Shown: positions 9,538 through 30,931 of the stretch, one piece after another
How positions within the stretch are numbered: the first letter of the stretch is position 1
Layout of the letters: every line of letters begins with the position of its first letter
Assembly (NCBI RefSeq): GCF_002915595.1
Contig: NZ_PQGG01000036.1
Coordinates: 1 to 64,000, forward strand
Direction: 5' to 3'
Source: Zhongshania marina
Lineage (GTDB): Bacteria; Pseudomonadota; Gammaproteobacteria; Pseudomonadales; Spongiibacteraceae
DNA: 64,000 nt
Made by a program: the position numbers and the translations under genes
Notes under the pieces: generated by a model
Seen by the model: only the letters and a program-made list of their open reading frames with translations
Told to the model about the DNA's origin: nothing
The model's database searches: none

Positions 9538-10358
9538 GACTTACCCTCCTGCTGCGCATGCCAAGGGAAGGCAAAGCGACTCAGCTGAGCAAGCAAGTAA
9601 TCGATAATAAAGGCCAGCAAGGTAATCCATGCCACATAGGGAAGAATTACATCCATAGAAAGATAGCGACGGACCAAAAATACGCGGTAGCCCAAACCAT
9701 CCGTTGAAGCAATCGCCTCTGCAGCTATTAAAAACAGCCACGCGGAACCTAAGGACAGCCGCACTGCGTCTATCAGTCGCGGCAGCAATTGGGGAATAAG
9801 CACACGCAAAATAATTTGGCCGCTATTCGCCCCTAAGGTTTGGGCCTTCACTAATTGCTCGCGGGGAATTTCTAAAGTGCGTTTTTGAATATCTCTGGCG
9901 ATAAAGGGAGTAACACCAATCGCAATCAATGCCACTTTGGATACTTCACCCAGTCCGAACACAATAAACAATACCGGCAGCAAGGCCATCGGCGGCACTA
10001 GTGACACCACCGTAAGCAGAGGTGCAAAACTCGCATTTAAAACCGGTAGTGCGCCAGTCATGAGCCCGAATAGCATTCCCAATGAAGCCGCAATGACCAT
10101 TCCCAGCCCCAAACGTCGCAGGCTGCTTAGGGTGTCTTGCCAGAACAAATAGTCTCCGCTGCGCTTGCTCGGTTCAAAAGCCAGACGCTGAATGGCATCA
10201 CCCATCTGCGTAAAGCTCGGCAGTAATTTATCCTGTGGATTTTCCGCAAGCCTTGCGTCGGATGCAGAAATATAAATCAGAATAATAACTGCGAATGGCA
10301 ATAGCGCCAGACCAATTCGCCATATGCGCGCGGGTGTAAAATTGATAAGTCGTTTCAT
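9534..10358 (-). CDS. ABC transporter permease (guanidine importer)
   Basis: Inner-membrane subunit, 274 aa, with about six hydrophobic segments: the first at about residues 13-30, followed after a polar periplasmic stretch by a core beginning near 85. The cytoplasmic EAA-like loop is visible near residues 170-190 (AQTLGANSGQ), where the ATPase docks. It belongs to the SsuC/TauC branch of the BPD transport superfamily. The stop overlaps the ATPase start by 4 nt. A gap of about 110 nt separates it from the binding-protein gene. That gap holds a modest ACGCTA/TAGCGT hairpin that could dampen read-through, as is usual after abundant binding proteins. Confidence 0.92.
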   Translation of the reverse strand: MKRLINFTPARIWRIGLALLPFAVIILIYISASDARLAENPQDKLLPSFTQMGDAIQRLAFEPSKRSGDYLFWQDTLSSLRRLGLGMVIAASLGMLFGLMTGALPVLNASFAPLLTVVSLVPPMALLPVLFIVFGLGEVSKVALIAIGVTPFIARDIQKRTLEIPREQLVKAQTLGANSGQIILRVLIPQLLPRLIDAVRLSLGSAWLFLIAAEAIASTDGLGYRVFLVRRYLSMDVILPYVAWITLLAFIIDYLLAQLSRFAFPWHAQQEGKS

Positions 10359-10469
10359 AGAGACCTTGTGTTACTACTATTTGTTACTACTTTTACGGCG
10401 TGTTTAGCTGATAGTCTTAATATTTGGCACGACGCTAAGCTTTTATTTACCTAGCGTAGCGCCACTCCC

Positions 10470-11513: not shown

Positions 11514-11571
11514 GGGTAAACCTCCAGCGGTTTTACACGGGTTCATAGAGCACTCCTGGCGAATATCGCCG

Positions 11572-12056: not shown

Positions 12057-12398
12057 ATGAAAAAAATATCAGCCAAACCGCTCATGGCAGCCACTGTTCT
12101 CGCGCTTAGCTCATCACTGTCAAATGCACAATTTTTAGGTTTACCCATACCTGCAATTGGTGACATGGCGCCATCAGGCCTTGTAACCTCGCTGACGGCA
12201 GTAGGTGTTGGCCAAGGGCTTCCCGTTGTAACCACTCTATTATTCAGCAGCCCACTTACGCCAGTAGTAAACGGCTTAGCACCACAAGCCAGCACGCTTA
12301 CCAACATCCTGCTAGGCAACCCAATTGATGAAATTGGTGCCTTACTTACCCTTGATGGCAATCCTTTAGGCGCCCTAGGCACGCTTCCAGGACTGTAA
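12057..12398 (+). CDS. small secreted Gly/Leu/Pro-rich protein, receptor-associated (family A)
   Basis: 113-aa protein with a clear Sec signal peptide ending SNA|Q near residue 24. The mature chain of about 89 residues is hydrophobic and rich in Gly, Leu, Pro and Thr, lacks Cys, and contains short LP/IP-G repeats (GLPIPAIG, GLPVVTTLL, LGALGTLPGL). I recognise no family. Two similar proteins (22036 and 25105) also lie beside TonB-dependent receptor genes. This one converges on the receptor at 12568. GGAG at 12047-12050 precedes the ATG, and a strong terminator follows. It is presumably exported to the periplasm or cell surface; a role in binding a hydrophobic ligand or docking to the receptor is only a hypothesis. 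Confidence 0.75.
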   Translation: MKKISAKPLMAATVLALSSSLSNAQFLGLPIPAIGDMAPSGLVTSLTAVGVGQGLPVVTTLLFSSPLTPVVNGLAPQASTLTNILLGNPIDEIGALLTLDGNPLGALGTLPGL

Positions 12399-12422
12399 AA
12401 CTTAATTTACATTTGTATCTTT

Positions 12423-12447
12423 GCCCCGCTTTGCGGGGCTTTTTTTT
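12423..12447 (+). terminator. rho-independent terminator
   Basis: GCCCCGC-TTT-GCGGGGC stem (12423-12439) followed by eight T. It ends the small exported protein gene. Confidence 0.93.
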
Positions 12448-12515
12448 GCCCAAACTTTACGTCTGCAACAAAACAAATATAAATCCTTCTGCCTATTCAA
12501 TCTGTTTTTTTAATC

Positions 12516-12539
12516 AAAAAAAAAACGCCCCGAAGGGCG
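12516..12539 (-). terminator. rho-independent terminator
   Basis: On the minus strand CGCCC-TTCG-GGGCG (12539-12526) is followed by a run of ten T. It ends the receptor gene at 12568. Confidence 0.9.
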
Positions 12540-12567
12540 CAAAGAATATTAAACTAAACAGCAAATA

Positions 12568-14898
12568 TTAATATTCCCAGTTCACTCTTAAACCATAGGT
12601 TCTCGGCGGGGCTAGATAATCTGAACGTCCTGCATCTGTATGGAATTGCGAATAGGTATAGCGATCATCGCTTAAGTTTTTACCAAAGGCCGTTACCCGA
12701 ATATTCGTGTCGTAATGCAAAAATCCTAATGCTGCATCCACAACGTAATATTCATCTTCCCACGACACTGGCGAATTTTGCGCTAGGTAATAGAAGCCTT
12801 GGTTGTAGTAGACACTGGTAGAAAATTCCAATTCACCAAGATCCGATACTTCAACAACTTGGTTTAAACCAAAGCTACCGCTAAATTTAGGCGTACGGGT
12901 TACACGGTTCCCCGTAAAATCACCCTGGCGATTATTGTAAAAGCCGTCGCCTTCGTTATAACCACTACCATTTACATACGAGGTGTATTCAGAGTCTAGG
13001 TAAGACCCCGTCAATGCGAGTACAAGCCCCGGGTTCATGTCTGGCATGGGCACCCACTGGGAGTCGAAATCAATACCGCGAATTCTCGCGCCACCCGCAT
13101 TTTCAAGTGATACCGCGCCACCGCTCAACAAGGAAATAAACTGAACTTGCAGATCTTCGATTTCATTTTCAAAAATCGCAAAGTTCATTGTTAAACCTTG
13201 ATCAAAGAATTGGGATTTAAGACCAATCTCTTTGGTGGTCACCGTTTCAGGACGAACGTATTCTGGCTCATCGTATACGTTTACGGTATTGAAGGTGCCA
13301 CTCTTATAACCTTGCGTATATGTTGCGTAGGCTAATATATCGTCGCCGAAGTTATATCCCACCGACACCTTAGGCGAGAAGTTATTGGTATCTGATACTG
13401 GGCGGCTGAACTGCAGCAGACTGCTATTGCTACCATCCAAGCCAACTAAGCCCACGCTAGATTCAATAACGCCACGGGTCTCTTCTTGATAACGACCACC
13501 CAAGGTTAGGTATAAATCATCAGTAAAGTGCAAAGTAGATTGCGCAAAATATGCTGTTGACTTGGTTCCTAGCAAGGACACCAAACCTAGCGACACACCG
13601 TCTGGTACAGAAATCCCCAAACCGCTGGTTAAGCCCGATACCACATTGATTAAGCCCTCCGGAACGGGAATACCCAGTAAAGCGCCATCGCTTAGATCTA
13701 AGCCCAGTACCGACAAACGGTTAAGCGGGAAGCCTGATTCCTGCTCCAAATGGAAGGCACCAACAATCCACTCTATCCACTCAGGTCCATTTTCGTTCGA
13801 CAGGAATTGAATCTCTTGGGTTTTTACGTCGGCAAACTGGCCTTTAGCATCGAAGGTGATGAAGGGGGTATCTGAGCCGTCAAAGTCATAGACGTTGTCG
13901 GTTGCGATATCTTGCTTGCTCGCCAAAATTTTCATATCGAACCAATCGGTGCGCCATTCAAATTGGCCGTAATACACGTCGTTATCTAAGGAGAAATAAC
14001 TTGGTACATCAACGTCAACATAGTATTCACGGGTTTGCGCCTCGATACCCAAGGTTTGCGCTAATACGCTGGGCGCTACATTTGGCATAGCGGTTGAGCT
14101 AACGCCGTACTGATCGAATTTAATATACGCGAGGTTTAAATCCATATTCTCGGTTGGCGAGAAACGAATTTTCATCCGATAGCCTTCACTTTCCTCTTTA
14201 GGAAATGACTCACTGCCACCGTTACCATCACCGCGTGTACCCTTGTAGTAATTGTCTGACTCGGCTTTGGTATACGACACACTCGCGGCCAACCAATCAG
14301 TAACTGGCAGGCTTCCGTGCAAGCGGAGATTGGTATTATCAAAGCTCTCTTTGCTCGCCAGCACCGATACTTCAGGCTCAACACCAGGTGACTTGGTGAT
14401 AATGTTAATGGCTCCACCGGTAGAGTTCCGACCAAACAAGGTACCCTGTGGCCCCTTAAGTACCTCTACCCGCTCAACCGCACCAAACGCCTGCGACTGT
14501 CCGTTTGCAAAAGGGTAGTAAATACCATCGATATAGGTTGCAACACTGGGATCGGAGTCGGGCAAGAAAGCATCACTACCCACACCGCGAATATAAATAA
14601 CCGCGAAGTTTACGGTCTGACCGTAATACATGCCCGGGGTAAACTGGGCTAAATCTTTGGGGTCATCAATACCCATCGCATCTAGCTTTTGCTCTGAAAA
14701 TGCCGCCAGAGAGATTGGGACGTCCTGCGCGTCTTCGGCGCGTTTCTGCGCCATAACCACAACTTCTTCGATCAGCCGATTTTTACCGCGAGTTTCTGTG
14801 CCCGCCTCCTTCTGCGCCCACGCTGGTGAAGCAGCAAAAACGGCAGCACCGAGAGACGCGAGTGAAATCGCTCTTGCCAAGCGCAAAGGTTTAAACAT
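12568..14898 (-). CDS. TonB-dependent outer-membrane receptor 1
   Basis: 776-aa outer-membrane transporter. Signal peptide MFKPLRLARAISLASLGAAV... ends at AWA|Q near residue 28. A TonB-box-like EEVVVMAQKR follows, then the plug domain (IRGVG, VERVEVLKGPQGTLFGRNS, GGAINI) and a beta-barrel ending in the terminal aromatic VNWEY. The start at 14898 is chosen for its normal signal peptide and AGGAAA ribosome site; an upstream in-frame ATG at 14955 also has GGAAGG and would give a 19-residue extension. A hydrophobic segment in the barrel (coding bases about 13560-13700: LLGIPVPEGL, GISVPDGVSLGL) resembles the neighbouring small exported protein. A TetR gene is divergent. It belongs to the receptor group common in sterol-, terpenoid- and aromatic-degrading proteobacteria; the ligand is unknown. 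Confidence 0.93.
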   Translation of the reverse strand: MFKPLRLARAISLASLGAAVFAASPAWAQKEAGTETRGKNRLIEEVVVMAQKRAEDAQDVPISLAAFSEQKLDAMGIDDPKDLAQFTPGMYYGQTVNFAVIYIRGVGSDAFLPDSDPSVATYIDGIYYPFANGQSQAFGAVERVEVLKGPQGTLFGRNSTGGAINIITKSPGVEPEVSVLASKESFDNTNLRLHGSLPVTDWLAASVSYTKAESDNYYKGTRGDGNGGSESFPKEESEGYRMKIRFSPTENMDLNLAYIKFDQYGVSSTAMPNVAPSVLAQTLGIEAQTREYYVDVDVPSYFSLDNDVYYGQFEWRTDWFDMKILASKQDIATDNVYDFDGSDTPFITFDAKGQFADVKTQEIQFLSNENGPEWIEWIVGAFHLEQESGFPLNRLSVLGLDLSDGALLGIPVPEGLINVVSGLTSGLGISVPDGVSLGLVSLLGTKSTAYFAQSTLHFTDDLYLTLGGRYQEETRGVIESSVGLVGLDGSNSSLLQFSRPVSDTNNFSPKVSVGYNFGDDILAYATYTQGYKSGTFNTVNVYDEPEYVRPETVTTKEIGLKSQFFDQGLTMNFAIFENEIEDLQVQFISLLSGGAVSLENAGGARIRGIDFDSQWVPMPDMNPGLVLALTGSYLDSEYTSYVNGSGYNEGDGFYNNRQGDFTGNRVTRTPKFSGSFGLNQVVEVSDLGELEFSTSVYYNQGFYYLAQNSPVSWEDEYYVVDAALGFLHYDTNIRVTAFGKNLSDDRYTYSQFHTDAGRSDYLAPPRTYGLRVNWEY

Positions 14899-15272
14899 TG
14901 AGGGCTTTTCCTGCAGATTTGCCACGCGTCCTACTGGACTTTCTAGACTGGCCATTTATTGCGTACCTTCCATTTGCTAGTAATTATTGTCAGCGACCTC
15001 TGAGCCATCGCTTTGTTACAAATATTTATAATACGTATCATTTGAACTGTCAAGATTTAGCTAATCGATTAAATTAATTTTGATTGCGCTGTCACACGAT
15101 TAAACCGCTTCATAAAGATTAGTCCCAAATTGCCAACTCACCACCTTGCAGCCGACAAAACAGTGCGATCAAATTGCTATTGCGATAACAGATCGATTAA
15201 CATTTCGACTTTGCGGCCATCTCTATGTAGGGCTCACCGCTGCCCAAACAGGAATTTCAATAAAGCCAAAAT
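14899..15272. other. divergent promoter region, receptor 1 / TetR
   Basis: No gene is seen. It holds AT-rich sequence with the palindrome TAATCGATTA (15062-15071) and an ATACGTAT (about 15030-15037), either of which could be the operator of the divergent TetR regulator. It lacks the ATCGTCG-N4-CGACGAT motif found elsewhere in the window. Confidence 0.35.
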
Positions 15273-15890
15273 ATGCAAACTCCTACTAAAAGCACGCAAA
15301 AATCGAGGAAAACCGCCGAAAACAAGCGCCAAGTGCTTATGGAAGCTGTAACTAGCTGCATCAAGATATATGGTCTAGAAAAGACCACAATGGAGAATAT
15401 TGCGGAGCAGGCCGGCTTAAGCCGAATCACCATTTACCGCAAATATAGCAATCGAAACAACCTAATCAGTAATTTTTTAGCCTACCGCGCAGAGCAATTT
15501 AACGCCAAAATCAAGGCTAAAATTAGTGACTGCAATAGTATGGAACAAGCCCTGGAAATATACTTTTTATCGAGTGCAGAACAGGCGTTTAAAGATGAAA
15601 GCGTGAGAGTTCTAGTAGAAACCTCCCACGTATTTAAGACCATATTGAATGGTGAAGAGTCTCCGATAAAAGACGCGATTATGGAGACATGGCAGCCCCT
15701 GCTGAAGAAATTAAGTGCCGATGACGCGCAAATTCTCAAAATTGATGACTCCGAAATCATCAACTGGATCATCATCATGCAGCACAATTTCTCGCGTATG
15801 GCGATTGAAGCCGAGTGTTCCGCCGAGCAAATTCGGCAATACATAAAAGACTTTGTTATTCCGGCCTTTATTATTAAAGCCTCAGCTTAG
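15273..15890 (+). CDS. TetR/AcrR-family transcriptional regulator
   Basis: 205 aa. The N-terminal helix-turn-helix is clear at about residues 21-66 (TTMENIAEQAGLSRITIYRKYSNR). The rest is an all-helical ligand-binding and dimerisation domain with no recognised specificity. It is transcribed away from the TonB receptor gene at 12568-14898, the usual arrangement for a local repressor of that gene. The ribosome site is weak, with nothing better than AGG-poor sequence before the ATG. Ligand and targets cannot be read from the sequence. Confidence 0.9.
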   Translation: MQTPTKSTQKSRKTAENKRQVLMEAVTSCIKIYGLEKTTMENIAEQAGLSRITIYRKYSNRNNLISNFLAYRAEQFNAKIKAKISDCNSMEQALEIYFLSSAEQAFKDESVRVLVETSHVFKTILNGEESPIKDAIMETWQPLLKKLSADDAQILKIDDSEIINWIIIMQHNFSRMAIEAECSAEQIRQYIKDFVIPAFIIKASA

Positions 15891-15945
15891 GGTGGCTCGG
15901 GCTTGGCGCTACGCAATTTGCGCCGCACACACACCCCTTGTATAG

Positions 15946-16716
15946 CTAGCCCTTTTTAGGCGCGCCAAATTCCCCAGGCCAACGAGAGCCGCCTATGGTA
16001 TCTGCAAACGGCTGGAAGCCTTGTGGATCTAAAGGCCCTTCAAGGGTGATCTGACGATCTAAGAATATCGGTGTCCACAAATGTGCCTCGGGCTCGCTTC
16101 GCACGGGTAATTTACTTGCCACTGGGTCCCAAGGGCTGTCATTGAGGGTCAATTTACCGTTTAATTTTTCTACGTAGGCGGTGCCGTATTTGCTGTACAC
16201 CCGCACCACATGGGGCGGAAAATCATAATCAGTCGATGCCATATCGACACCGCGCAAACATTTAATCCACCACTCATTGGTTTCAAACTCCGGCGGTATT
16301 TCTCCCGGCCCAGTCACTTGGCCGCTGTATTCAAGAAAGGTGTAACCGCGATGTGTGACACTGGCGCTTATATAATCCATTAAACGAAAGTACTTGGTCT
16401 CAGCATAATACTTTGGCTGCCCCCAGCGCTCATGGCTGCCGTAGATGGCTGCCTCTTGGTCTATAGCAATCCCAAGGGTATATTCGCCCTCGATGCCATT
16501 GTAAACAGCATCCACATTCACCACGCAGCCGTACTCAGGCTCATTTAATACCGGAAAATTATAGATCGTCAGGGTAACTTTTGGCGTTTTTGCCGGTGTG
16601 ATCCCAGGTGGCAACAAAGCAGCAATGTTTTCTGGATCCGTAAGGTAGCTAATTTTCAACATCGGCCAGTTTAAAATATCGCCCGGCTTGCCTATGGGTG
16701 CAGTGGGGTGAGTCAT
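15946..16716 (-). CDS. acetoacetate decarboxylase-family protein
   Basis: 256 aa. It matches the ADC-like fold family in length and in the region WGQPKYYAETKYF (about residues 98-110), whose lysine corresponds to the area of the Schiff-base lysine in true acetoacetate decarboxylases. The gene begins about 60 nt downstream of the Rieske oxygenase stop, on the same strand, so the two are probably co-transcribed. ADC-like proteins of this type are often found with oxygenases in cyclic-compound catabolism, where the reaction is usually not acetoacetate decarboxylation. The true substrate is unknown. Confidence 0.82.
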   Translation of the reverse strand: MTHPTAPIGKPGDILNWPMLKISYLTDPENIAALLPPGITPAKTPKVTLTIYNFPVLNEPEYGCVVNVDAVYNGIEGEYTLGIAIDQEAAIYGSHERWGQPKYYAETKYFRLMDYISASVTHRGYTFLEYSGQVTGPGEIPPEFETNEWWIKCLRGVDMASTDYDFPPHVVRVYSKYGTAYVEKLNGKLTLNDSPWDPVASKLPVRSEPEAHLWTPIFLDRQITLEGPLDPQGFQPFADTIGGSRWPGEFGAPKKG

Positions 16717-16776
16717 GGTATTTTCCTCGTTATTATTAAAATTTAGTTCGGTTTTATTGGCGCTTGAAAGCAGCTC

Positions 16777-17751
16777 TTACGCGGCGTAAAACTGTTGAAA
16801 CCATTTGCGGTATTTTGCAATTGGACCATCGCCATCACAGAGCGTCGGCTCATCTAGGTACACCTTGTTTTCCCAGATCGGAATATCCTGCTGAACTTGG
16901 TGCACTATCTCATCGCGGAAGGCATTGGCGTACAGTTTGTGCTCATCTGACTGCTGCTTTGGCATGCTGAAGCTAAAGCGCATGTGCAAGCTCTGCTCGT
17001 CAATCGGCGTTACCGTACCCATCATTACTATTTCGAAAAGTCGTGAAAATTTTTGGTAGGTTTGCCCGGGACCATAGGACGAGGTCACCAAGCGCCCCAT
17101 ATCAAAGTTTTCGCCGCTGCGGTCAATATTGCCGAACTCATCAATCGCCTCGGTTAAGCTGTCCATGACTGTGCTGCGCTGATAGCCTTCAATCGTTACT
17201 TCGCCAACGGGCATTTCTGGCGATGCGTGTACCGTCACAAAATGCGCGATATCAACCGCATTCTCACCGGTTTCCTGAATAATCGAATTGATTCTCCAGT
17301 CGTAAACATCCATATCCGTCCACTCTGACGAATGCAGTTCAGGGTGAGACTCAACCTCCCATAATGGCTCAGCATCCTGTGGGTGATACCAAGCCCAAAT
17401 CATTTGATTGCACTCTTTTACAGGATAGCGACGCAGCGCTTGCTTGCCGTCAATTTTGGGTGGCATATTCTTGGCATAAGGGACCTTGGTACAAAAGCCG
17501 TCGCCGTTGTACTCCCAAGCATGGAACGGGCAACTGATACTCTCGCCCTTAACAACACCGCCGTGGCCCAAATGCGCACCTAAATGCGGGCAGTGGGCAT
17601 CAAGCAATGCCGCTTCTCCTGACTCGGTGCGGAACAACACCAAATCACGACCAAAATACCGCAGGGGCTTTACATCACTGGGGTTTAATTCCTTTGTGTA
17701 TTCAATCGCAAACCAGCCGAATGGAATTGGCTTGTCATAACGCGTACTCAT
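16777..17751 (-). CDS. Rieske non-haem iron oxygenase (KshA-like)
   Basis: 324-aa oxygenase component. The Rieske [2Fe-2S] ligands are C54, H56 (CPHLGAH), C74 and H77 (CPFHAWE). The mononuclear iron site is seen in ENAVDIAHFVTVH (about residues 160-172), giving the Asp-bridge and two His ligands. The single-component architecture and the GDGFCTKVPYA region resemble 3-ketosteroid 9alpha-hydroxylase oxygenase KshA and related terpenoid/steroid oxygenases; the substrate is inferred only at that level. The start at 17751 has GGGAG 6 nt upstream; a longer frame from 17790 lacks a ribosome site. No reductase gene is adjacent, so electrons must come from elsewhere. An ADC-like gene follows in the operon. 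Confidence 0.88.
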   Translation of the reverse strand: MSTRYDKPIPFGWFAIEYTKELNPSDVKPLRYFGRDLVLFRTESGEAALLDAHCPHLGAHLGHGGVVKGESISCPFHAWEYNGDGFCTKVPYAKNMPPKIDGKQALRRYPVKECNQMIWAWYHPQDAEPLWEVESHPELHSSEWTDMDVYDWRINSIIQETGENAVDIAHFVTVHASPEMPVGEVTIEGYQRSTVMDSLTEAIDEFGNIDRSGENFDMGRLVTSSYGPGQTYQKFSRLFEIVMMGTVTPIDEQSLHMRFSFSMPKQQSDEHKLYANAFRDEIVHQVQQDIPIWENKVYLDEPTLCDGDGPIAKYRKWFQQFYAA

Positions 17752-17992
17752 ACTTTTCTCCCACACTGGCATGCCGAGTAGCAAGGCCACAAAAAGGTAA
17801 CTACAGTGTAAAAAAAGTATATGGTTTACATTTTAAGGTCAAGCGGAGATTTTAAATATGCACATTAATATTCATTCACACGACCAATAAAACGCCATTT
17901 TGGCTGAGCATATAAGCTAAGTTGCGAGATCGAAAAACATTAGCCCCTAGAGAGCACTATACTAGGGCGTCCATTTTGAATAGGCCAAAACC

Positions 17993-18934
17993 TTGAACAA
18001 TGCATATAAATCCGACCTGCTGCTAGTGATTGTGACCCTATTGGCGTCTATCAGCTGGATGTTCTCCAAAGAGGCAGTATTACAAATGCCCCCACTGCTC
18101 TTTATGTCGATGCGTTTTTTTCTGGCAGGCCTACTGCTTAGCTGTGTGTCATACCAAGCACTGCGGGGGCTGGCCCGCTGCGCATGGCTGCATGCTATTC
18201 GGGTTGGATTAATATTTGGCTTTGCCATGTGCTTTTGGGTAACCGGGCTGGAAAAAGCGAGCCATGTAGGCGAAGCAGCATTTTTAGCTAGCCTTGGCGT
18301 GGTGATGGTTCCCATCATTGCGCGGCTTTTGTTTAAAGAAAGCATTCCACCCAGCACATGGTTCGCGCTACCGGTGGCACTTGTCGGTCTTGGCTTTTTA
18401 TCGCTTGGTGCGGCAACAACGCACGCGCTAAAAATAGAGGCTTCACATATTTTATTGCTGACGTCGGCAGCTTTTTTCGCCCTGTATTTCAACTTAAATG
18501 CGCGAGTCACCAATATCCGCTCATTCGTCAAAAACAATAGTAGCGACGGCAAAGCGAGTAAGATTCCCGTGCTGGCCCTAACCACGATTGTGCTGTTAAC
18601 AACCGGTGTCATTACCGGAATAACGTCTGCTTTTTTCGAAGCTTGGCGGCCCACCCTCACCAATCTTCACGCTGAATTAATCGGTTGGATTCTACTCTCT
18701 GCAACCATAGGCACCGCGCTGCGCTTCTTGGTTCAAACCTATGCACAGAGCCTGACGGCAAATAGCCACGGTGTTGTTATCATGGTGTTAGAACCCCTGT
18801 GGACGACACTTATCGCAATGCTGTGGTTTAGTGAAACTATGAACGCCAGCCAACTCCTCGGTTGCCTGCTGATTTTATTGTCGCTGATCATAAACCGCTT
18901 AAAGGCAATTACTCAGCTTATGGGTATACGGTAA
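17993..18934 (+). CDS. DMT-family (EamA) transporter
   Basis: 313-aa inner-membrane protein with about ten hydrophobic helices in two EamA repeats (roughly residues 7-145 and 155-300). It carries the usual Glu in the last repeat (MVLEPLWTTLIAMLWFSE). DMT transporters of this group export metabolites or drugs; no substrate can be named. A long hydrophilic loop near residues 177-195 separates the halves. The start is TTG at 17993, since no in-frame ATG occurs near the first helix, and the ribosome site is poor. It stands alone between the divergent Rieske gene and the convergent TetR gene. Confidence 0.85.
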   Translation: MNNAYKSDLLLVIVTLLASISWMFSKEAVLQMPPLLFMSMRFFLAGLLLSCVSYQALRGLARCAWLHAIRVGLIFGFAMCFWVTGLEKASHVGEAAFLASLGVVMVPIIARLLFKESIPPSTWFALPVALVGLGFLSLGAATTHALKIEASHILLLTSAAFFALYFNLNARVTNIRSFVKNNSSDGKASKIPVLALTTIVLLTTGVITGITSAFFEAWRPTLTNLHAELIGWILLSATIGTALRFLVQTYAQSLTANSHGVVIMVLEPLWTTLIAMLWFSETMNASQLLGCLLILLSLIINRLKAITQLMGIR

Positions 18935-18961
18935 ACCTTGCTTAGGCAATGCAGGGACACG

Positions 18962-19573
18962 CTATTTCAGCATGCTATCTGTCAAATAGGTTTTCAGCGA
19001 TTTAAAGCGCGCCGAGGTGTCGTAATGATCGTCGTGCAGCCAATTCAAGGTGATGATATTAGTCATACCCACCGTCATTTCTGCACAGAACTGCGGACTT
19101 AGGCCCGGTTTTAACTGCGCCTTACCGTGGCTAAACAAGCGCTGGTAGCAGTTACTCATAAACTGCAATTGGCTGGCGCCTTGGCTCATATTCGTCGACA
19201 GCGACCCAACTAAATAGCCAATAAGCTCCCGCTCTAATTTACTGGCGGTGCTGTTACGGGTGGCGAGTACCCCGAGGACAAATTCTAGCTGGCTAGCAAG
19301 GTCATCACTCTGCTCTATGGCTTCAGTAATCAGGTCATCGGTGCGCTGCAGCAATTCTGACTGGCAGATATCTACCAGCAGATCGTGCTTCGACGCGTAG
19401 TAGTTGTAGAAGGTCTTTTTGGCGATATCTACGCAATCGCAAATGGCGTCTATGGTGATGCCATCCACACCATATCGATTAATTAAAAGAAGGGTTTGCT
19501 CGCATATATTTTCACGAACCGCCTTCTTCTTTCGCTCTCTGCGCCCAAGCTGTGCTACTGGCAAAATACTCAC
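18962..19573 (-). CDS. TetR-family transcriptional regulator
   Basis: 203 aa with a helix-turn-helix at about residues 38-66 (ITIDAICDCVDIAKKTFYNYYASKHDLL) and a helical C-terminal domain. It begins with GTG at 19573; a TTG three codons later with AGGTGA upstream is another possibility. It is convergent with the DMT permease and lies 110 bp from the end of the SDR gene. A GCCGTC-AGT-GACGGC palindrome (about 19631-19645) upstream of its start could be an autoregulatory operator or the end of the SDR transcript. Likely targets are the surrounding Rieske, SDR and P450 genes. Confidence 0.88.
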   Translation of the reverse strand: MSILPVAQLGRRERKKKAVRENICEQTLLLINRYGVDGITIDAICDCVDIAKKTFYNYYASKHDLLVDICQSELLQRTDDLITEAIEQSDDLASQLEFVLGVLATRNSTASKLERELIGYLVGSLSTNMSQGASQLQFMSNCYQRLFSHGKAQLKPGLSPQFCAEMTVGMTNIITLNWLHDDHYDTSARFKSLKTYLTDSMLK

Positions 19574-19683
19574 CTCAAAACCCTATTTAGGAGGGGATAG
19601 TAACGCAAGCCTACGCAGAGAACCACGCCACCGCCGTCAGTGACGGCGACGACGGGGCTGTTGCGAAAGCAGCGATCCTATTG

Positions 19684-20562
19684 CTACAAGACATCCGGCA
19701 CCGTTGGCGTGGTTCTGTTTAAGATGCTATCTACCCTTGCGACAAAGGCTGCCCTAGCCTTGTCTGACATCGGCGAAATCCAAAAGCTCTCGTCCCGAAT
19801 ACCCTGTATCGCAAATGCCGCAACCTCTTCTGGCTCCGTCGTCTGCAACTGCATATCGTACTGGGCCATAATCGCCTTCATGTCCTCAACTGAGTGAATT
19901 CCTGAATCGGGCTTGTCGGGATTGCCCGGCAGCGATTCTGGGCGATTGCGCTCAGAATTAAAAATACCAGTGTTCACCACATGGGGGCCGGGGAAAAGAG
20001 CATTGACCTTGACCGGTGACTGAGTGGCTTGAAGTTGATAGTGCAAATTCTCGGTGATCGCCTGCACTGCGGCCTTGCTGGCGGTATAGATTGGGGTATT
20101 TGGCAACATGAGAAACGCACCATTGCCGGAACCCGTCACCACAAAATGCGCCTCTTCGTTCTGCGCGACCAATTTAGGTAAAAATGCGTTAATAGAATGA
20201 ATTAGGCCCCAGGTGTTTACCCGAAAGCCCCACTCCCAGTCATTTAGCTCGTAGTCCCACATATTGCCGGCTTCGCCAGTGCCAACCCCCGCATTGGCAA
20301 ACACAAGGTGCATTGCGCCAAAGCGCGCCATCACAGCGTCTACCAGGGCGTTCATTGAACTCGCATCAGTCACATCTGCGCTCTGACCCATGCATTCGCA
20401 ACCCAAGCTCTCCAGCTCTGCCACTGTGCGCTCGAGTGCTGCCGCCTCAATATCTGCCACGACCACCTTGGCACCTTCTTTGGCCAGTAAAAGCGCTATT
20501 GCCCGCCCGACACCGCTAGCCCCGCCGGTAATAACAGCCACTTTATTTGTAAAGTCTTTCAT
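19684..20562 (-). CDS. short-chain dehydrogenase/reductase
   Basis: 292 aa classical SDR: nucleotide-binding TGGASGVG (about residues 12-19), NAGVG (about 90-94), catalytic Ser in VVTGSGNG and Tyr-Lys in YTASK (about 159-163). An acidic residue after the second beta strand (VVADIEA) suggests NAD(H). The C-terminal third is longer than usual, with an acidic, Pro-rich insertion (SLPGNPDKPDSG). It is divergent from the P450 gene, so the pair may oxidise a hydroxyl group introduced by the P450. The substrate is unknown. Confidence 0.9.
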   Translation of the reverse strand: MKDFTNKVAVITGGASGVGRAIALLLAKEGAKVVVADIEAAALERTVAELESLGCECMGQSADVTDASSMNALVDAVMARFGAMHLVFANAGVGTGEAGNMWDYELNDWEWGFRVNTWGLIHSINAFLPKLVAQNEEAHFVVTGSGNGAFLMLPNTPIYTASKAAVQAITENLHYQLQATQSPVKVNALFPGPHVVNTGIFNSERNRPESLPGNPDKPDSGIHSVEDMKAIMAQYDMQLQTTEPEEVAAFAIQGIRDESFWISPMSDKARAAFVARVDSILNRTTPTVPDVL

Positions 20563-20708
20563 ACCTTGAATCTCCAGATGCCTATTTTAATTATTTAGTA
20601 ACTTGAGAATAAAATTACACTGGAGTATATTTTTTTGCAAGCAGCGAAATATTAGCAGCAACAATAACAATTCCGCGTCGCCCTAAGCGTCATCAGCGAG
20701 GATCTACC

Positions 20709-21953
20709 ATGTCAGCAAGTGCAAGCACTCTTCCCCCCATCGAGTCACTCTTCGACCCGAACTCAAAGTCATACGCAGAAAATCCCGCGCCACAGTGCCT
20801 AGCCATCGCGGCTCGGGGCCCCTTGGTGTGGTATGCACCGTGGCAGGCGTGGATCATGACCCAAATGCCAGACATCATGGATTGCTGGAAACGCGAATAC
20901 CTTTCATCTGACTTTTACGACTGGGAATTTGCACCGCCACGCCCCACCGAGGAAAACTGGAATAAATTTGAAAAAGCCCTAGTTGGCCACAGCCTGCTTG
21001 CCGACCCAGATCATCACCGCCTAGTGCGCCGAATCACCTCACCGGCCTTTTCACGCAATGTGGTAGACAATATTCAGCGTCAAATCGAACCCCACGTAAC
21101 ACGTTTGTTCGACGACATAGGCACACCTGAATCCTTTGATTACATCACCGAGGTCGCCCAGCACATTCCCTTTATTTCCATCACGGCAATGGTCGGTGTA
21201 CCGGAAAAATACTGGCCAGAGATGAAGCGTGTCACCCAAACATTTACCGAAACATGGAACCCAACCATCTCGGAAGAACGTCGCCTGCGCGCCCAAGAAG
21301 ACAGTAATAAAGCCATCGATATACTGCAGGTGGTAATCGCCGAGCGTCGCGAAAACCCTCAGGAAGGAGACTTTCTCAGCGCACTACTCAAAATAGAAGC
21401 GGCAAATGAAAATTTTAATGAATGGGATATTATCACCCTGATTCTTGCCTTGATTGGCGCAGGCGCAGACACCACCCTCATTGCCCAGCAGTGGTCGGTG
21501 TATGCCCTACTAAAAAGCCCAGACCAAGTACCCTATGCGCTGGAATCCGCCGACGCGTTCTCGAACGCCTTTAGCGAAATAATGCGCTGGTCTGGCAACT
21601 CAAAAATGGGCTTTGCCCGCTATGCGCCAAGTGATATGCAGCTATTAGGGCAAGAGGTGAAGAAAGGCCAAATGGTCTTGATGATGCCGCACCTAAAAGA
21701 TCACGACCCAGCCTACTTTAGCAATCCGGAAAAACTAGATGTTAGACGGAAATTCGAACCCGACGTGCTATTTGGCTACGGCCCGCGCTTCTGTATCGGT
21801 GCCGCGCTCGCAAAGCGTCAGCTATATTTAACGATGGGGGAAATGTTTAAACGCTTCCCGAATATCTCCCTCGCCGAAGAACCCGAACGGGATTTAGAAG
21901 ATCACAATGCCGTGGTATTTAAGCGACTACTACTAAACACGAACATAAAATAA
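20709..21953 (+). CDS. cytochrome P450
   Basis: 414-aa soluble bacterial-type P450 monooxygenase. Haem-binding FGYGPRFCIG with axial Cys362, I-helix oxygen-activation AGADTTL (about residues 258-264), and K-helix EIMR (ExxR, about 296-299). AGCGAGGATC precedes the ATG. No ferredoxin or ferredoxin reductase gene is adjacent, although a rubredoxin gene lies at the far end of the window. Its position next to the SDR and near the Rieske oxygenase and TonB receptors suggests hydroxylation of a hydrophobic cyclic or aliphatic substrate. I could not place it in a CYP family from reading alone. Confidence 0.95.
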   Translation: MSASASTLPPIESLFDPNSKSYAENPAPQCLAIAARGPLVWYAPWQAWIMTQMPDIMDCWKREYLSSDFYDWEFAPPRPTEENWNKFEKALVGHSLLADPDHHRLVRRITSPAFSRNVVDNIQRQIEPHVTRLFDDIGTPESFDYITEVAQHIPFISITAMVGVPEKYWPEMKRVTQTFTETWNPTISEERRLRAQEDSNKAIDILQVVIAERRENPQEGDFLSALLKIEAANENFNEWDIITLILALIGAGADTTLIAQQWSVYALLKSPDQVPYALESADAFSNAFSEIMRWSGNSKMGFARYAPSDMQLLGQEVKKGQMVLMMPHLKDHDPAYFSNPEKLDVRRKFEPDVLFGYGPRFCIGAALAKRQLYLTMGEMFKRFPNISLAEEPERDLEDHNAVVFKRLLLNTNIK

Positions 21954-21954
21954 T

Positions 21955-21976
21955 TAGCGGGGAAATATCCCCGCTA
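21955..21976. terminator. hairpin between convergent genes
   Basis: TAGCGGGGA-AATA-TCCCCGCTA is a perfect 9-bp stem just after the P450 stop. The minus strand continues into a T-rich stretch, so it can end the small exported protein transcript (22036) and probably the P450 transcript too. Confidence 0.65.
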
Positions 21977-22035
21977 CAAATTAAGAATTTGGCACTAGGT
22001 GCTCGAGTTTACCACCTAAATCACGAAAGTCTTCT

Positions 22036-22518
22036 TCAAAACGGTGCCAATGACAACGGAAGCAGTATTAATTGATCAACCGGTATTGCTACTAAAACCT
22101 GACTAAACGCAGGCACCAATACTTGCGCTGGCTCGGTGTCCAATAAACTGCCAAGTACAGGTACCCCACCAGCGATTGCGTCATTTACTAAACCGCTACC
22201 TAATACGGTTCCAATCAAAGGGAGTTCAGAACCGCCAAATACGTCGGTAAGGGTAATTAAGCGGATCTCACCGTTCATTATGGGCGTAAGTATTGGTAAA
22301 CCACCCTGCCCACCTAAATCTGTTAGCGACGCTAAACCACTGCCTAATAATTCATTAACTACTGGCTCAATTTGTATCGTGGTAAGTGCTGGTAAACCAC
22401 TAGATAGCAAATCCTGCCCTAATGGAAGCAATCCGCCAACTATAGGAATATTTTGCGCGTTTACATTCACCGCAAAAAGCAGTGATACGCTCAATAAGAT
22501 TTTTTTAAAATTTTTCAT
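22036..22518 (-). CDS. small secreted Gly/Leu/Pro-rich protein, receptor-associated (family B)
   Basis: 160 aa. Signal peptide MKNFKKILLSVSLLFAVNVNA|Q, then a hydrophobic, Cys-free chain with repeated IP/LP-GG motifs: IPIVGGLLPLG, LPILTPI, GGVPVLGSLL, LILLPLSLAPF. The start at 22518 has GGAG 7 nt upstream; the ATG at 22524 is too close to it. It lies about 100 nt downstream of receptor 2 on the same strand, so the two are probably co-transcribed. The motifs GG(V/I)PV(L/V)G and a LAP C-terminus are shared with the protein at 25105, and the composition with the one at 12057. No known family was recognised. Its location is probably periplasm or cell surface. Confidence 0.78.
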   Translation of the reverse strand: MKNFKKILLSVSLLFAVNVNAQNIPIVGGLLPLGQDLLSSGLPALTTIQIEPVVNELLGSGLASLTDLGGQGGLPILTPIMNGEIRLITLTDVFGGSELPLIGTVLGSGLVNDAIAGGVPVLGSLLDTEPAQVLVPAFSQVLVAIPVDQLILLPLSLAPF

Positions 22519-22621
22519 TTTCATACTCCAAAAACCATCTTTCGCACACGACTAGTAGCTAGCAACGTCGAAAACGTCAAACACCAAAGATGGCGCCAAA
22601 AATAACGCCATCCACATTAAG

Positions 22622-24937
22622 TTAGAAATCCCAGTTAACTCGTGCGCCAACAACACGAGGAGAGTTCAAAACTTGGTTACGTCCAAAGTCATCAACAAAG
22701 ACCACTTCGTTGTAAACCTCATCCAGAACGTTCTCGCCAAATATTGTTAACTGCAGCCCCCAAGGATTGTAAAAATAGCTTACGCGAGCGTTATACAAAT
22801 TGTAGGACTCACGCGCATAAAGGTCGGAGTTCTGCGGCAAAAAGTAAAAGCCATCGTTGTAATAAGTATCTACACCAATCTCAATCGCGCCATCACCGAC
22901 AGGAATACTCTGGTTCACACCAAAGGTGTAAGTTAATTCAGGGGTTCTTACGATTCGATTGCCACTGAAGTCACGTGCCGGTAGCGGAAAGGTGCCGCCT
23001 TCGCCAAACGCCAAACCGGTATCTTCATCATAACCACGCCCGTCTGGGTAAGATGTGTATTCAGAGTCCAATACACTAACAGCACCGAACATCGCCAAAC
23101 CTGGGTTCCAATTAGGCATGGGCGTCCATACAAAATCTGCCTCTGCACCCGATATTTCTGAATCGCCGGCATTGTCGTAACTCACCACACCACCAGACGC
23201 TAATGCCACAAATCCGGTTAGCAAATTCTGCTGTTCGATATAAAACACCGCCGCGTTTAAGCGCAAATTGCCGTCTAACAGATCTGTTTTAATACCCAGC
23301 TCGTAAGATTCAACCTGCTCTTCTTCTACACTCTCTGGTGCGTCAAGTAGGTTAACCGTGTTGTAGGTCGGACTTTTGAATGCCCGCCCCCAAGAGGCGT
23401 AAATTTGCGTGTCGTCATCAAAGGGACGCCATTGAAAGGCGACTTTTGGCGACAACTGATGAGAGGTCAAGGTTGGCACGTCGTCAGAGCGCAGCAAGAT
23501 CTCGTCACCATCGCCATCAACAGTCGCTAAGCGAGACTTTAATAGATTTCGTTCTTCTTCTTGGTAACGCAAGCCAAAGGTAAGATCCATAGACGGCGAC
23601 AGGAAGAAAGTGCTTTGCACATATGCCGAATAGGACTCACTATCTAGCACGCCGCCAGACAATAACCGAACACCTTCACTGACGTTCGGCAATCCAACCA
23701 CATTTAGCAAGCCACCCAATAGCCCTGTTAGTGAATCTGCCAATGGAACTGGCAATGTTGTTAAGGCATTGGGTGCAACATCAAACGCTATCGGATCGAA
23801 ACCGCCGCTGGAAGAAAGGTAGTAAAGACCAGCCACCCACTCCATATGCTCACTCAAGTAGCTGTCTTCATTCGACAAAAACTGCAGCTCAAGCGTTTGC
23901 TGCTCAGCTAGCTGTACAATGGAGCGAATATTGATAACGGGTAATTCACTTTTATCAAAATCAGCCTGCACAAAGGGTGCATCAACCTCTTGATCGGAGC
24001 CAATCATCTTTATATCTACACCAGGCAACTGCCAATCAAGTGTAAATGACACGAGGTAAGACTCAGAGGTGGCTCCCGCCAGCGAATCAAAGCTCAATTT
24101 GCGATCAGCTTTAGGGTCTTGCGGGAACGCTATACCTAATACCGGTGCGGTGCGGGTATTCTCAAACGCCAAACCTGAGTTTCCGCTACCCTCAGACATA
24201 GACCCAGACAAGGTTAATGCGAGCGTATCGGAAATATCCCAGCGAATTTTTGCGCGGCCACCCCGAGAGTAGACATCGATAATAGGGCCAGCATCATTGC
24301 TGTAGTAATTGTCGTGCTCGCTAGAAAATAGCGCGACGCTGGCGGCAAGCCCTTCAACTAAAGGCAAGTTCAAAAAGATTAAGCCATTCTGCTCGCCGTA
24401 ATCACCAAGCTCTAGTTTCATGCTACCGAAAAATTCATCTGCGGGAGCAGGAGTAATAATATTAACCGCACCGCCCGTTGCATTCCGGCCGAACAAAGTA
24501 CCTTGAGGCCCCTTTAATACCTCTACTCGCTCAACCTTACCGAGGGTGTCTGAACTGCCCTGCGCACCGAGCAAGGCGACGCCGTCAAGATAAAAAGGTA
24601 CGCTGGGATCCGCACCGGGTAAAAAGGCATCGGTGCCCACACCACGCAAATAGGCAACATTAAAGCCCACCGCATTCGTCACGGTTAAGCCTGGGGTAAT
24701 TCTCTCTAGGTCTTGAGCACTTTCTATACCAAAAGCATCAAGTTTTTCATTACTAAACGCGGTAATTGCAATAGGAACATCTTGGGCGTTTTCTTCACGC
24801 TTCTGGGCCGTGACTACAACCTCTTCAATCAATCTATTTGTTTGCTTTTTTCCGGCTTGGCCGACTTCCTGTGAATTCACGCCAGCCGAAGACGCCAGCG
24901 CTATTAGCGTCACCGGCAGCCAATTATTATGCTTCAT
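22622..24937 (-). CDS. TonB-dependent outer-membrane receptor 2
   Basis: 771 aa. A Sec signal peptide ends near SQ in GVNSQEV, followed by a TonB box-like IEEVVVTAQKREEN, a plug (LRGVGTDAF, VERVEVLKGPQGTLFGRNA, GGAVNI) and a barrel ending VNWDF. AGGAG lies 6 nt before the ATG. It is closely similar along its length to receptor 3, with an almost identical plug, indicating tandem duplication together with the downstream small-protein gene. The barrel carries a hydrophobic segment (bases about 23660-23790; LPVPLADSLTGLLGG) similar in composition to the small proteins. An ATCGTCG-type palindrome is centred about 100 bp upstream. The ligand is probably hydrophobic but unknown. Confidence 0.94.
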   Translation of the reverse strand: MKHNNWLPVTLIALASSAGVNSQEVGQAGKKQTNRLIEEVVVTAQKREENAQDVPIAITAFSNEKLDAFGIESAQDLERITPGLTVTNAVGFNVAYLRGVGTDAFLPGADPSVPFYLDGVALLGAQGSSDTLGKVERVEVLKGPQGTLFGRNATGGAVNIITPAPADEFFGSMKLELGDYGEQNGLIFLNLPLVEGLAASVALFSSEHDNYYSNDAGPIIDVYSRGGRAKIRWDISDTLALTLSGSMSEGSGNSGLAFENTRTAPVLGIAFPQDPKADRKLSFDSLAGATSESYLVSFTLDWQLPGVDIKMIGSDQEVDAPFVQADFDKSELPVINIRSIVQLAEQQTLELQFLSNEDSYLSEHMEWVAGLYYLSSSGGFDPIAFDVAPNALTTLPVPLADSLTGLLGGLLNVVGLPNVSEGVRLLSGGVLDSESYSAYVQSTFFLSPSMDLTFGLRYQEEERNLLKSRLATVDGDGDEILLRSDDVPTLTSHQLSPKVAFQWRPFDDDTQIYASWGRAFKSPTYNTVNLLDAPESVEEEQVESYELGIKTDLLDGNLRLNAAVFYIEQQNLLTGFVALASGGVVSYDNAGDSEISGAEADFVWTPMPNWNPGLAMFGAVSVLDSEYTSYPDGRGYDEDTGLAFGEGGTFPLPARDFSGNRIVRTPELTYTFGVNQSIPVGDGAIEIGVDTYYNDGFYFLPQNSDLYARESYNLYNARVSYFYNPWGLQLTIFGENVLDEVYNEVVFVDDFGRNQVLNSPRVVGARVNWDF

Positions 24938-25015
24938 TTCTTGCTCCTGATTACTTACCTATTAGCAATCTGAAAATTACTAACGAAAAATACTTATTAC
25001 AAATTATCACTACAA

Positions 25016-25057
25016 GTATCACCCCGTATCGTCGAAAACGACGATACGGGGTGATAC
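25016..25057. repeat. 19-bp perfect palindrome with AAAA centre
   Basis: The arms 25016-25034 and 25039-25057 are exact reverse complements. The inner part (25028-25045) is a member of the ATCGTCG-N4-CGACGAT motif set. It lies between the small protein gene (25105) and receptor 2. No T-run follows on either strand, so it looks more like an extended operator than a terminator, though it could also limit read-through. Confidence 0.75.
25028..25045. promoter_or_regulatory. operator candidate 1 (ATCGTCG-N4-CGACGAT)
   Basis: ATCGTCG-AAAA-CGACGAT is a perfect match, 90 bp upstream of the receptor 2 start (24937). Confidence 0.7.
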
Positions 25058-25104
25058 AAGCTCAAAAAAGACTCAATTTAATAATAGACAAACAAGCTTT
25101 GTGC

Positions 25105-25497
25105 TTATAAACCTGCGGGGGCAAGCTGGAGCGGCATAATTAAGATGTTGCCAAGACTAACCGTCGTCAAAAGCTGGCCACCTATTCCGAGAAATGGCGC
25201 AAAAGCATCGCTGACCAGCAATTCGCCAACGACAGGAATACCGCCAGAAATCACCGCATCAGCAGCCTCACTGCCTAATACTTGACTAACAAGCGGCGAC
25301 AACACCGACGATCCAGCCGAACTTACGCCGCCCAAGCCCAAATCTGGAAAAGCACTCAAAGACGGAATACCACCGCCACCCAGACCAGCCAGCAGGCCAC
25401 CCAACACCGGAATGCTATCTAGGGACTGGGCATTCGCAGTCATCGCCGTTGAAAGCACACAGCCAGCAAATAGCAATTTCATATTATTTATTTTCAT
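25105..25497 (-). CDS. small secreted Gly/Leu/Pro-rich protein, receptor-associated (family C)
   Basis: 130 aa. The signal peptide ends TANA|Q near residue 24. The mature chain is hydrophobic, Gly/Leu/Ser-rich and Cys-free, with IPVLGGLLAGLGGGGIPSL at its N-terminus, GGIPVVGELL in the middle and ILIMPLQLAP near the C-terminus. These last two match positions in the protein at 22036 closely, so the two are paralogues. GAGG lies 6 nt before the ATG. It follows receptor 3 by about 60 nt on the same strand, probably in one transcript. Function unknown; conserved pairing with receptors suggests a surface or periplasmic partner. Confidence 0.78.
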   Translation of the reverse strand: MKINNMKLLFAGCVLSTAMTANAQSLDSIPVLGGLLAGLGGGGIPSLSAFPDLGLGGVSSAGSSVLSPLVSQVLGSEAADAVISGGIPVVGELLVSDAFAPFLGIGGQLLTTVSLGNILIMPLQLAPAGL

Positions 25498-25555
25498 TTT
25501 TAGCCTCTTTCTAATACACGGGCGTTAAGTACATCATTACGCGACCAAATCGCTA

Positions 25556-27889
25556 TTAAAACTCCCAATTCACTCGTGCACCTACCACCTTGGGCGAGTT
25601 CAAGCTTTGGTTGCGTCCAAAGTCATCAACAAACACGACCTCGTTGTATTCAGTATCAGTGATATTTTCACCAAATACGGTTAATCGAACGCCCCAAGGA
25701 TCATAGATATAACTCACCCTAGCGTTATACAAGGTATACGACTCACGCGCATACAGATCTGAATTCTGCGGCAAGAAGTAAAAACCGTCGTTGTAATACA
25801 GATCTGCACCGAACTCTAAAGCGCCGTCACCAAGAGGTATCGACTGGTTTAAGCCAAAGGTATATGTCAGCTCTGGCGTACGAACAATGCGGTTACCTTT
25901 AAAGTCTCTGGCTGGCAATGGAAAGGTACCGCCGTTACCAAAGGCCAAACCTGTGTCTTCATCATAACCGCGACCTTCTTTGTACTCGGTATACTCAGAA
26001 TCAAGGAAACTAGCCGCGCCAAACAGCACCAAGCCAGGATTCAAGTTGGGCATTGGTGAGAGCAGGAAGTCAAACTCGGCACCTCTGATTTCTGAGTTAC
26101 CCGCATTGGCGTAGTTAACAACACCACCCGAAGCTAACGCCACAAACCCTGTCAGCAAGTTTTCTTGCTCAATATAAAACAACGCCGCATTTAAGGTTAG
26201 ATTTTGATCAAAGAGCTGCGACTTAAAGCCAAGCTCATAGGAGTCAACTCGCTCCTCCTCAACCTCTTCTGGACTGTCTAACAAGTTAACTGTGTTGTAA
26301 GTAGGGCTTTTAAATGCTCTCGCCCACGACGCGTAAATTTGCGTGTCATCATCGAAGGGCCGCCACTGCAAGGCAATCTTTGGCGACATTTGCTCGGCGC
26401 GAAGCTCGGGAACCTTGTCTTCACGAATCGTCAGCGTGGAGCCATCCTGCCCTGCCACCTCCGCTTTGGCATTTAGCAGATTACGCTTCTCTTCCTGATA
26501 GCGCGCACCCAAGGTTAAATCCCAGTTGTCTCCTAGCTTTAATGTACCTTGCATATAGGCGGAGTAGGCTTCGCTGTCCAAAACACCATAAGCCAGCACC
26601 CGAACACCGTCACCCAAATTCTGCAGACCTAATAAGCTACTCACGTCATTTAGCAAGCCAGACAACTCGCCGCCAAGTGGAATTGGTAAACTTGTTAATG
26701 CACTAGGCAATACATCAAAGGCGATGGGATCAAAGCCGCCGCTAGACTCTATGTAATAAAGTCCTGCCACCCACTCAAAATACTCGGAGAAAGGTGTTTC
26801 AGCGTTCGACAAAAACTGCAATTCCGCGGTTTTTTGCAAAGCCAGCTGAACAATCGACTCAATATTAATGATAGGTAAGGCGCTCTTATCAAAGTCCGCC
26901 CGCACAAATGGAGCCGACAGCTCTTGATCGGAACCGATAAACTTAACGTCGACGCCGGAGAGACGCCAATCTATGGTCACAGAATACAATTCTGATTCCG
27001 TTTCGGCCCCAGCCATCGAGTCAAAACTGACATGGCGATCTGCCTTGGGATCTTTAGGCAAAGCCGCACCCAATACTGGCGCAGGGCGGGTCAACTCAAA
27101 GGCCAAGCCCCCATTATTGGCCGCCTCTTGCTTAGAGCCCGCTAAAATAATCGCCAGGTCATCGGTAATGTCCCAGCGCAACTTTAATCGCCCGCCTCGG
27201 GCATATACATCAATCACCTCGCCGACATCATTGGTGTAGTAATTGTCGCGCTCATTGGTAAAAGCAGTGAACGTCGCAGCTAATTTATTTTCGACTAAAG
27301 GCACATTCACATAAATTTGGGCGTTACGCTCGCCATAGTCGGCAAACTCTAATTTTAAATCGCCTAAAAACTCCTCACCGGGCTCCGGCGTCACAATATT
27401 GATCGCACCGCCAGTTGCGTTACGACCAAACAACGTGCCCTGCGGCCCCTTTAGAACCTCTACTCGCTCCACGCGACCCAGGGTGTCGCTACTGCCCTGC
27501 GCACCAAGTAGTGCAACACCATCAAGATAAAACGGTACGCTGGGGTCTGCGCCGGGTAAAAATGCATCAGTACCAACACCGCGCAAATACGCGACGTTAA
27601 AGCCCGCCGCACTGGTAACAGTAAAACCAGGCGTAATGGTCTCTAAGTCTTGAGCGCTCTCGATTCCGAAAGCATCGAGTTTTTCATTACTAAAGGCGGT
27701 GATAGCAATGGGGACGTCTTGCACATTTTCTTCACGCTTCTGGGCGGTGACCACCACCTCCTCGAGCAATCTATTTGTTCTTTTGCCCGACGCGGCCTCT
27801 TCCGGCACCTGAGCAGAAGCCGCAATTGAAGCCGACAACCCAGCAGCAATAATCGCCAAACTTAAGCTCGTTCTTTTTCTTATAGTCAT
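25556..27889 (-). CDS. TonB-dependent outer-membrane receptor 3
   Basis: 777 aa. Signal peptide MTIRKRTSLSLAIIAAGLSA... ends near ASA|Q. TonB box-like LEEVVVTAQKREEN, plug with LRGVGTDAF and VERVEVLKGPQGTLFGRNA, barrel ending VNWEF. It is a close paralogue of receptor 2. The barrel segment encoded near 26600-26720 (LPIPLGGELSGLL, LLGLQNLGDG) is hydrophobic like the small exported partner. An operator candidate is 176 bp upstream. Duplicate receptors with duplicate partners suggest related but distinct ligands or different expression conditions. Confidence 0.94.
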   Translation of the reverse strand: MTIRKRTSLSLAIIAAGLSASIAASAQVPEEAASGKRTNRLLEEVVVTAQKREENVQDVPIAITAFSNEKLDAFGIESAQDLETITPGFTVTSAAGFNVAYLRGVGTDAFLPGADPSVPFYLDGVALLGAQGSSDTLGRVERVEVLKGPQGTLFGRNATGGAINIVTPEPGEEFLGDLKLEFADYGERNAQIYVNVPLVENKLAATFTAFTNERDNYYTNDVGEVIDVYARGGRLKLRWDITDDLAIILAGSKQEAANNGGLAFELTRPAPVLGAALPKDPKADRHVSFDSMAGAETESELYSVTIDWRLSGVDVKFIGSDQELSAPFVRADFDKSALPIINIESIVQLALQKTAELQFLSNAETPFSEYFEWVAGLYYIESSGGFDPIAFDVLPSALTSLPIPLGGELSGLLNDVSSLLGLQNLGDGVRVLAYGVLDSEAYSAYMQGTLKLGDNWDLTLGARYQEEKRNLLNAKAEVAGQDGSTLTIREDKVPELRAEQMSPKIALQWRPFDDDTQIYASWARAFKSPTYNTVNLLDSPEEVEEERVDSYELGFKSQLFDQNLTLNAALFYIEQENLLTGFVALASGGVVNYANAGNSEIRGAEFDFLLSPMPNLNPGLVLFGAASFLDSEYTEYKEGRGYDEDTGLAFGNGGTFPLPARDFKGNRIVRTPELTYTFGLNQSIPLGDGALEFGADLYYNDGFYFLPQNSDLYARESYTLYNARVSYIYDPWGVRLTVFGENITDTEYNEVVFVDDFGRNQSLNSPKVVGARVNWEF

Positions 27890-30884: not shown

Positions 30885-30889
30885 TACCC

Positions 30890-30925: not shown

Positions 30926-30931
30926 ATTCTA

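Follow-up and report, generated by a model that had tools for sequence, protein, structure and literature searches.

What do three small exported proteins, each encoded beside a TonB receptor, contribute to Zhongshania marina? They are found in a 64,000-nucleotide stretch of its genome (assembly GCF_002915595.1, contig NZ_PQGG01000036.1, positions 1 to 64,000), here called the window, and bear on a wider problem: the outer-membrane passage of oily nutrients is poorly understood, and how bile acids enter the bacteria that degrade them has been described as largely unknown (PMC8399759). We find the receptor and small-protein genes to be genetically coupled, often in an operon-like order. On balance, we favour the reading that the small proteins are dedicated accessories, though not obligatory ones, to a clade of TonB receptors through which lipophilic growth substrates resembling steroids, terpenoids or hydrocarbons are imported.

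Three receptor–partner loci

The features concerned, with lengths in amino acids (aa), are as follows:

12057–12398, + strand: partner 1, small exported protein, 113 aa; convergent with receptor 1, a divergent family member
12568–14955, − strand: receptor 1, TonB receptor, 795 aa; Plug and β-barrel Pfam domains
13576–13710, − strand: hydrophobic Gly/Leu/Pro-rich loop of receptor 1, about residues 416–460, placed by alignment
22036–22524, − strand: partner 2, small exported protein, 162 aa; downstream of receptor 2
22622–24937, − strand: receptor 2, TonB receptor, 771 aa; 72% identity with receptor 3
23669–23773, − strand: hydrophobic loop of receptor 2, about residues 389–423, placed by alignment
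25105–25497, − strand: partner 3, small exported protein, 130 aa; downstream of receptor 3
25556–27889, − strand: receptor 3, TonB receptor, 777 aa; AlphaFold predicted local distance difference test (pLDDT) 85
26606–26710, − strand: hydrophobic loop of receptor 3, residues 394–428; modelled as two helices and probably extracellular

The 4.13 Mb genome, from the Zhongshania/Spongiibacter genus (family Spongiibacteraceae), encodes 66 TonB receptors. Receptors 1–3 all match PF07715 (plug) and PF00593 (C-terminal β-barrel) above the curated cut-offs, and each partner has a Sec-type signal peptide, the end of which lies close to an N-A-Q motif, and a mature part without cysteine. A preliminary description of this DNA had placed three exported, Cys-free, Gly/Leu/Pro-rich proteins beside TonB receptors, two downstream on the receptor's strand and one convergent; positions, strands and orientations are all as claimed. 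Its length range of 113–160 aa is right in the minimum and wrong in the maximum (true range 113–162 aa). Gaps on the same strand are 97 base pairs (bp) from receptor 2 to partner 2 and 58 bp from receptor 3 to partner 3, and 169 bp separate the convergent partner 1 and receptor 1. The partner 1 gene has a terminator-like hairpin of its own downstream, and another follows the partner 2 gene at 21976–21955.

Low-complexity composition and the lack of a known family would suit mis-called open reading frames (ORFs) or neutral hitch-hikers, paired with receptors without function. Selection speaks against this. Measured against orthologues, the ratio of non-synonymous to synonymous substitution rates (dN/dS) is 0.06–0.09 for partner 1 and 0.04 for partner 2 (partner 3 had no close orthologue), and the tested small genes are thus under purifying selection; they evolve faster than their receptors, at 0.02–0.03. 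Since these ratios are low and the convergent arrangement of partner 1 with its receptor is kept in two other genomes, we take the small ORFs to be real genes. The C-terminal region and signal peptide are also conserved, and the pairing recurs far above chance, as described below, which leaves the hitch-hiker or mis-call explanation hardly credible.

Receptors 2 and 3 are close paralogues (72% identity) and partners 2 and 3 share both GG(V/I)PV(L/V)G and a C-terminal LAP motif, as the preliminary description had it. That the receptor and its partner were duplicated as a whole unit, its further claim, fits the tandem arrays of such units, which differ among species. In Z. aliphaticivorans a unit orthologous to receptor 2–partner 2 comes first and a different receptor–partner unit follows; in the window, unlike Z. 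aliphaticivorans, the receptor 2–partner 2 unit is preceded by another. Because the receptors are this similar, the partners match at BLAST E = 9e-9 and the arrays vary by species, the sequences fit gain and loss of whole units.

A small-protein family and its pairing with one receptor clade

The partners belong to one previously undescribed family, in line with the relatedness first proposed for them. Seeds came from a composition scan of this genome's receptor neighbourhoods and from reading the flanks of clade receptors, which together turned up similar small proteins at four further receptors and a single one remote from any receptor. The resulting profiles gave 55 matches in 17 of 18 Zhongshania/Spongiibacter genus genomes, including partners 2 and 3 and missing partner 1; four members added by eye or from an earlier profile bring the list to 59. 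Most are united by a canonical C-terminal region of about 60 residues (GGT, then P.IP, then PL), clear in most other members and degenerate in partners 1–3, behind a variable N-terminal part that carries tandem repeats in some. Mature proteins lack Cys and Trp in 52 of 52 cases and are acidic (isoelectric point about 4), with a median of 1 Lys plus Arg and 10 Asp plus Glu and a median grand average of hydropathy of 0.78. Partners 1–3 show the same traits: a signal peptide and a mature part without Cys or Trp and almost without Lys or Arg.

For the small proteins, nothing rose above noise in profile and sequence searches of Pfam, NCBIfam and PDB sequences. Nor did any family member appear beyond the genus in about 900 sampled genomes, drawn from partly overlapping sets of about 282 (order), 368 (class) and 298 (phylum). 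Within the family, the longest members, about 290 to 514 aa, are built of tandem repeats (L093/L213, L085/L217, L092/L218), with the canonical C-terminal region placed at the end, close to it or internally; the repeat of L213 has a 48-bp unit in 7.6 copies. Three members without a receptor, from three genomes, are convergent to an RND-type pump gene (L054 8815–9216, L225 7249–7614 and L220 7657–8067).

The genetic pairing of small protein and clade receptor is solid. Of the 59 members, 42 have a receptor from one clade within 1.3 kb, so that most homologues do adjoin such a receptor, as the profile-search check put forward with the preliminary description anticipated. The arrangement is directly downstream on the same strand in 33 (median gap 126 bp), divergent in 6, upstream in 2 and convergent in 1. 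In the window genome, such a neighbour occurs within 1.3 kb at 6/12 clade receptors versus 0/54 other receptors (Fisher p = 1e-5), and a seventh clade receptor has a small-protein gene at 3 kb. With the two seed genomes left out, 31 of 44 members adjoin a clade receptor, against 0.28 expected under random placement. These two comparisons, within the genome and elsewhere, argue that the pairing is not chance. It is also clustered on a tree of 67 receptors, where the paired state needs 9 changes versus 21.7 in shuffles and one group is paired 13/13 (the 'unpaired' label of L230 is unreliable, its contig ending beside the receptor).

Receptor loop, substrate and mode of action

Readable clade receptors carry a Gly/Leu/Pro/Val-rich segment of 68–93 residues, where most other receptors are shorter and more polar; Gly/Leu-rich loops also occur in a few receptors outside the clade. 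In the AlphaFold model of receptor 3 (pLDDT 85 overall), two helices at residues 395–420 (pLDDT 50–65) sit between two tall strands, and counting strands in this model places the loop probably on the extracellular side. Foldseek matches the model to the solved TonB-transporter fold (FyuA, FoxA, FhuA and others, best E 1.6e-44), the closest solved structures being siderophore receptors at about 15–18% identity. Two ideas about the loop were tried. That it is specific to paired receptors was rejected, since partner-less clade receptors carry it too. An origin of the small protein from the loop is not supported: their profile–profile score is no better than that of column-shuffled controls, with an outlying score in one of 30 shuffles.

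A partner of this kind might serve the looped receptor itself, helping it to fold, insert or gate, or shielding it from phages or bacteriocins, with no substrate bound. The fixed place just downstream of the receptor gene would suit such a guard or assembly factor, and FhuA has a known precedent in an exclusion lipoprotein that binds it (8a60, one of the structural matches). Clade receptors with the same loop nevertheless exist without partners, and the partners are not lipoproteins; we regard this explanation as decidedly improbable.

The favoured reading, in which the partners serve import, draws on the genes around the receptors. Three of these in the window are:

15946–16716, − strand: acetoacetate-decarboxylase-like protein, in a conserved group with receptor 1
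16777–17790, − strand: KshA-like Rieske oxygenase, from the same conserved group
20709–21953, + strand: cytochrome P450, beside partner 2

The oxygenase has Rieske and KshA C-terminal domains and matches 3-ketosteroid 9-alpha-hydroxylase at E 7e-41; the genome encodes four KshA-domain proteins. The receptor 1 group also holds a TetR regulator, and nearby in the window are a P450, a short-chain dehydrogenase, a FadL-family gene at 32026 and a wax-ester synthase. Other paired receptors neighbour P450, aldehyde dehydrogenase, thiolase, acyl-CoA dehydrogenase, enoyl-CoA hydratase or Rieske genes. Among these surroundings, the KshA-like oxygenase, P450s, FadL, wax-ester synthase and acyl-CoA enzymes all fit a lipophilic substrate. 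Because of these catabolic neighbours, and because a TonB receptor is tied to oestrogen uptake elsewhere, a lipophilic substrate is likely for the clade receptors.

The receptor clade would then import a lipophilic growth substrate, which the mature, Sec-exported small protein might bind or disperse in its water-insoluble form and pass to or from the receptor. Sec export by itself leads to the periplasm. The composition and repeats of the small proteins look extracellular. Action at the cell surface, where the substrate would be presented to the hydrophobic loop, is a real though tentative possibility; action in the periplasm, with the substrate accepted after TonB-driven passage, has a slightly weaker claim, and some other site or mode is unlikely. 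The small protein might also be the lipid or sterol carrier, or the surface lid, that the preliminary description suggested. More speculatively, the family could be a new class of exported lipid-presenting proteins, haemophore-like but for steroids, terpenoids or hydrocarbons, whose acidic amphiphiles solubilise the substrate and dock on the loop of a dedicated receptor; we think this rather unlikely.

Several results weigh against dedicated accessories. In the family-wide set of 116 clade receptors, no adjacent partner was detected for 75, a count that overstates absence because the profile misses divergent members, as it missed partner 1; close relatives of receptor 3 in two other genomes have none. 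Conversely, 17 of the 59 members lie away from clade receptors, three of them by AcrB-type pumps. The clade reaches Hydrocarboniphaga, Solimonas, Sinimarinibacterium, Panacagrimonas and Nevskia, and clade receptors in Hydrocarboniphaga, Solimonas and others have no partner nearby. The genomes examined there hold no family member: the ten reached through the receptor search gave none anywhere, using the profile that matches 17/18 genus genomes and with no internal positive control. Receptor and partner distances correlate at r = 0.72 (n = 29), driven by close orthologues, and at r = 0.007 in the 10 divergent pairs. By profile–profile comparison, the loop and the small protein are alike in composition only, with no sequence homology, and an AlphaFold model of the small protein built from four sequences gives pLDDT 36 and no usable fold.

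The receptor clade is therefore broader than the partner family, and the pair is non-obligatory. The two-part uptake system suggested in the preliminary description is partly supported: the genetic coupling is strong, but these counts do not bear out an obligatory pair, and outside the genus no genome examined that carries clade receptors held a family member. The distances gave no sign of deep receptor–partner co-evolution, the correlation vanishing in divergent pairs.

Partner-less receptors are common, as expected if no fixed contact is made, and this suits a different role: general amphiphiles, secreted as a surfactant or surface coat, that disperse oily material or make the surface hydrophobic and are co-regulated with the receptors without touching them. 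The extreme composition, the tandem-repeat variants and the members away from receptors point the same way. Several distinct members per genome, each about 100 bp from its own receptor, are more specific than such a coat would require, and we consider it improbable. The accessory reading remains our preference. It describes receptors of one clade, recognisable by a hydrophobic loop, and, within a single genus, a dedicated exported partner family without a database name; the gene pairs, the natural partner-less controls and the named strains allow the partner's role to be tested directly.

Other features recur around these receptors. A COX3-like protein lies within 6 kb of 15/67 clade receptors versus 3/108 others, and the loci of those three also hold a clade receptor. 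COX3/CyoC-like proteins occur near clade receptors in the window (30051–34109) and at L248, L250, L253, L010, L021, L239 and L251, several of these loci also having a multi-pass membrane protein of about 240 aa without annotation. In the window a COX4-like protein follows the COX3-like one, with mutually homologous membrane proteins (30051, 33321) nearby. LuxR-type regulators of 850–920 aa lie near clade receptors at L248, L250, L252 and window 37523–40264, the last with a MalT-like region. Elsewhere in the window are a FAD (flavin adenine dinucleotide)-dependent oxidase (28394–30007), closest to the β-carotene ketolase CrtO and far below the cut-off; genes for allophanate hydrolase, urea carboxylase, two DUF1989 proteins and an ABC transporter (1875–11546), resembling an ordinary urea carboxylase operon; a phage-integrase-family recombinase near the contig start (632–1654); and a 1145-aa ORF (44139–47576) that matches nothing in Pfam at 1e-8.

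Comparison with known uptake systems

A precedent for the receptors is EdcT, through which Novosphingobium (Caenibius) tardaugens has a TonB receptor with a part in oestrogen uptake (PMC7793797). Like the window receptors it is TonB-dependent; it belongs to a steroid-catabolic cluster and is experimentally linked to uptake of a lipophilic steroid. Unlike the window pairs, it comes with no small exported partner in the parts of that report consulted here (PMC7793797). AupA/AupB and FadL-type systems also bring oily substrates through the outer membrane, in hydrocarbon-degrading marine bacteria, but are not TonB-dependent receptors, and AupB is an inner-membrane protein (PMC5989066).

For the pair, SusC/SusD of Bacteroidota offers the same combination of a TonB transporter with a dedicated extracytoplasmic accessory (PMC11658791). 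SusD caps SusC as a lipoprotein on the cell surface (PMC11658791), whereas the window partners have no mature Cys and no recognisable fold; across the family, Pfam and NCBIfam gave no SusD-family match, and a lipidation Cys is absent from 52/52 mature proteins. HasA/HasR resembles the proposed pair in that a small exported protein supplies a TonB receptor with a ligand of poor solubility (PMC11658791). Unlike HasA, the window partners match no Pfam or NCBIfam family, haemophore families included, and their ligand would be a lipophilic one. By analogy, then, the window arrangement resembles TonB transporters with an exported helper, such as SusC/SusD and HasR/HasA, with a helper that belongs to neither family.

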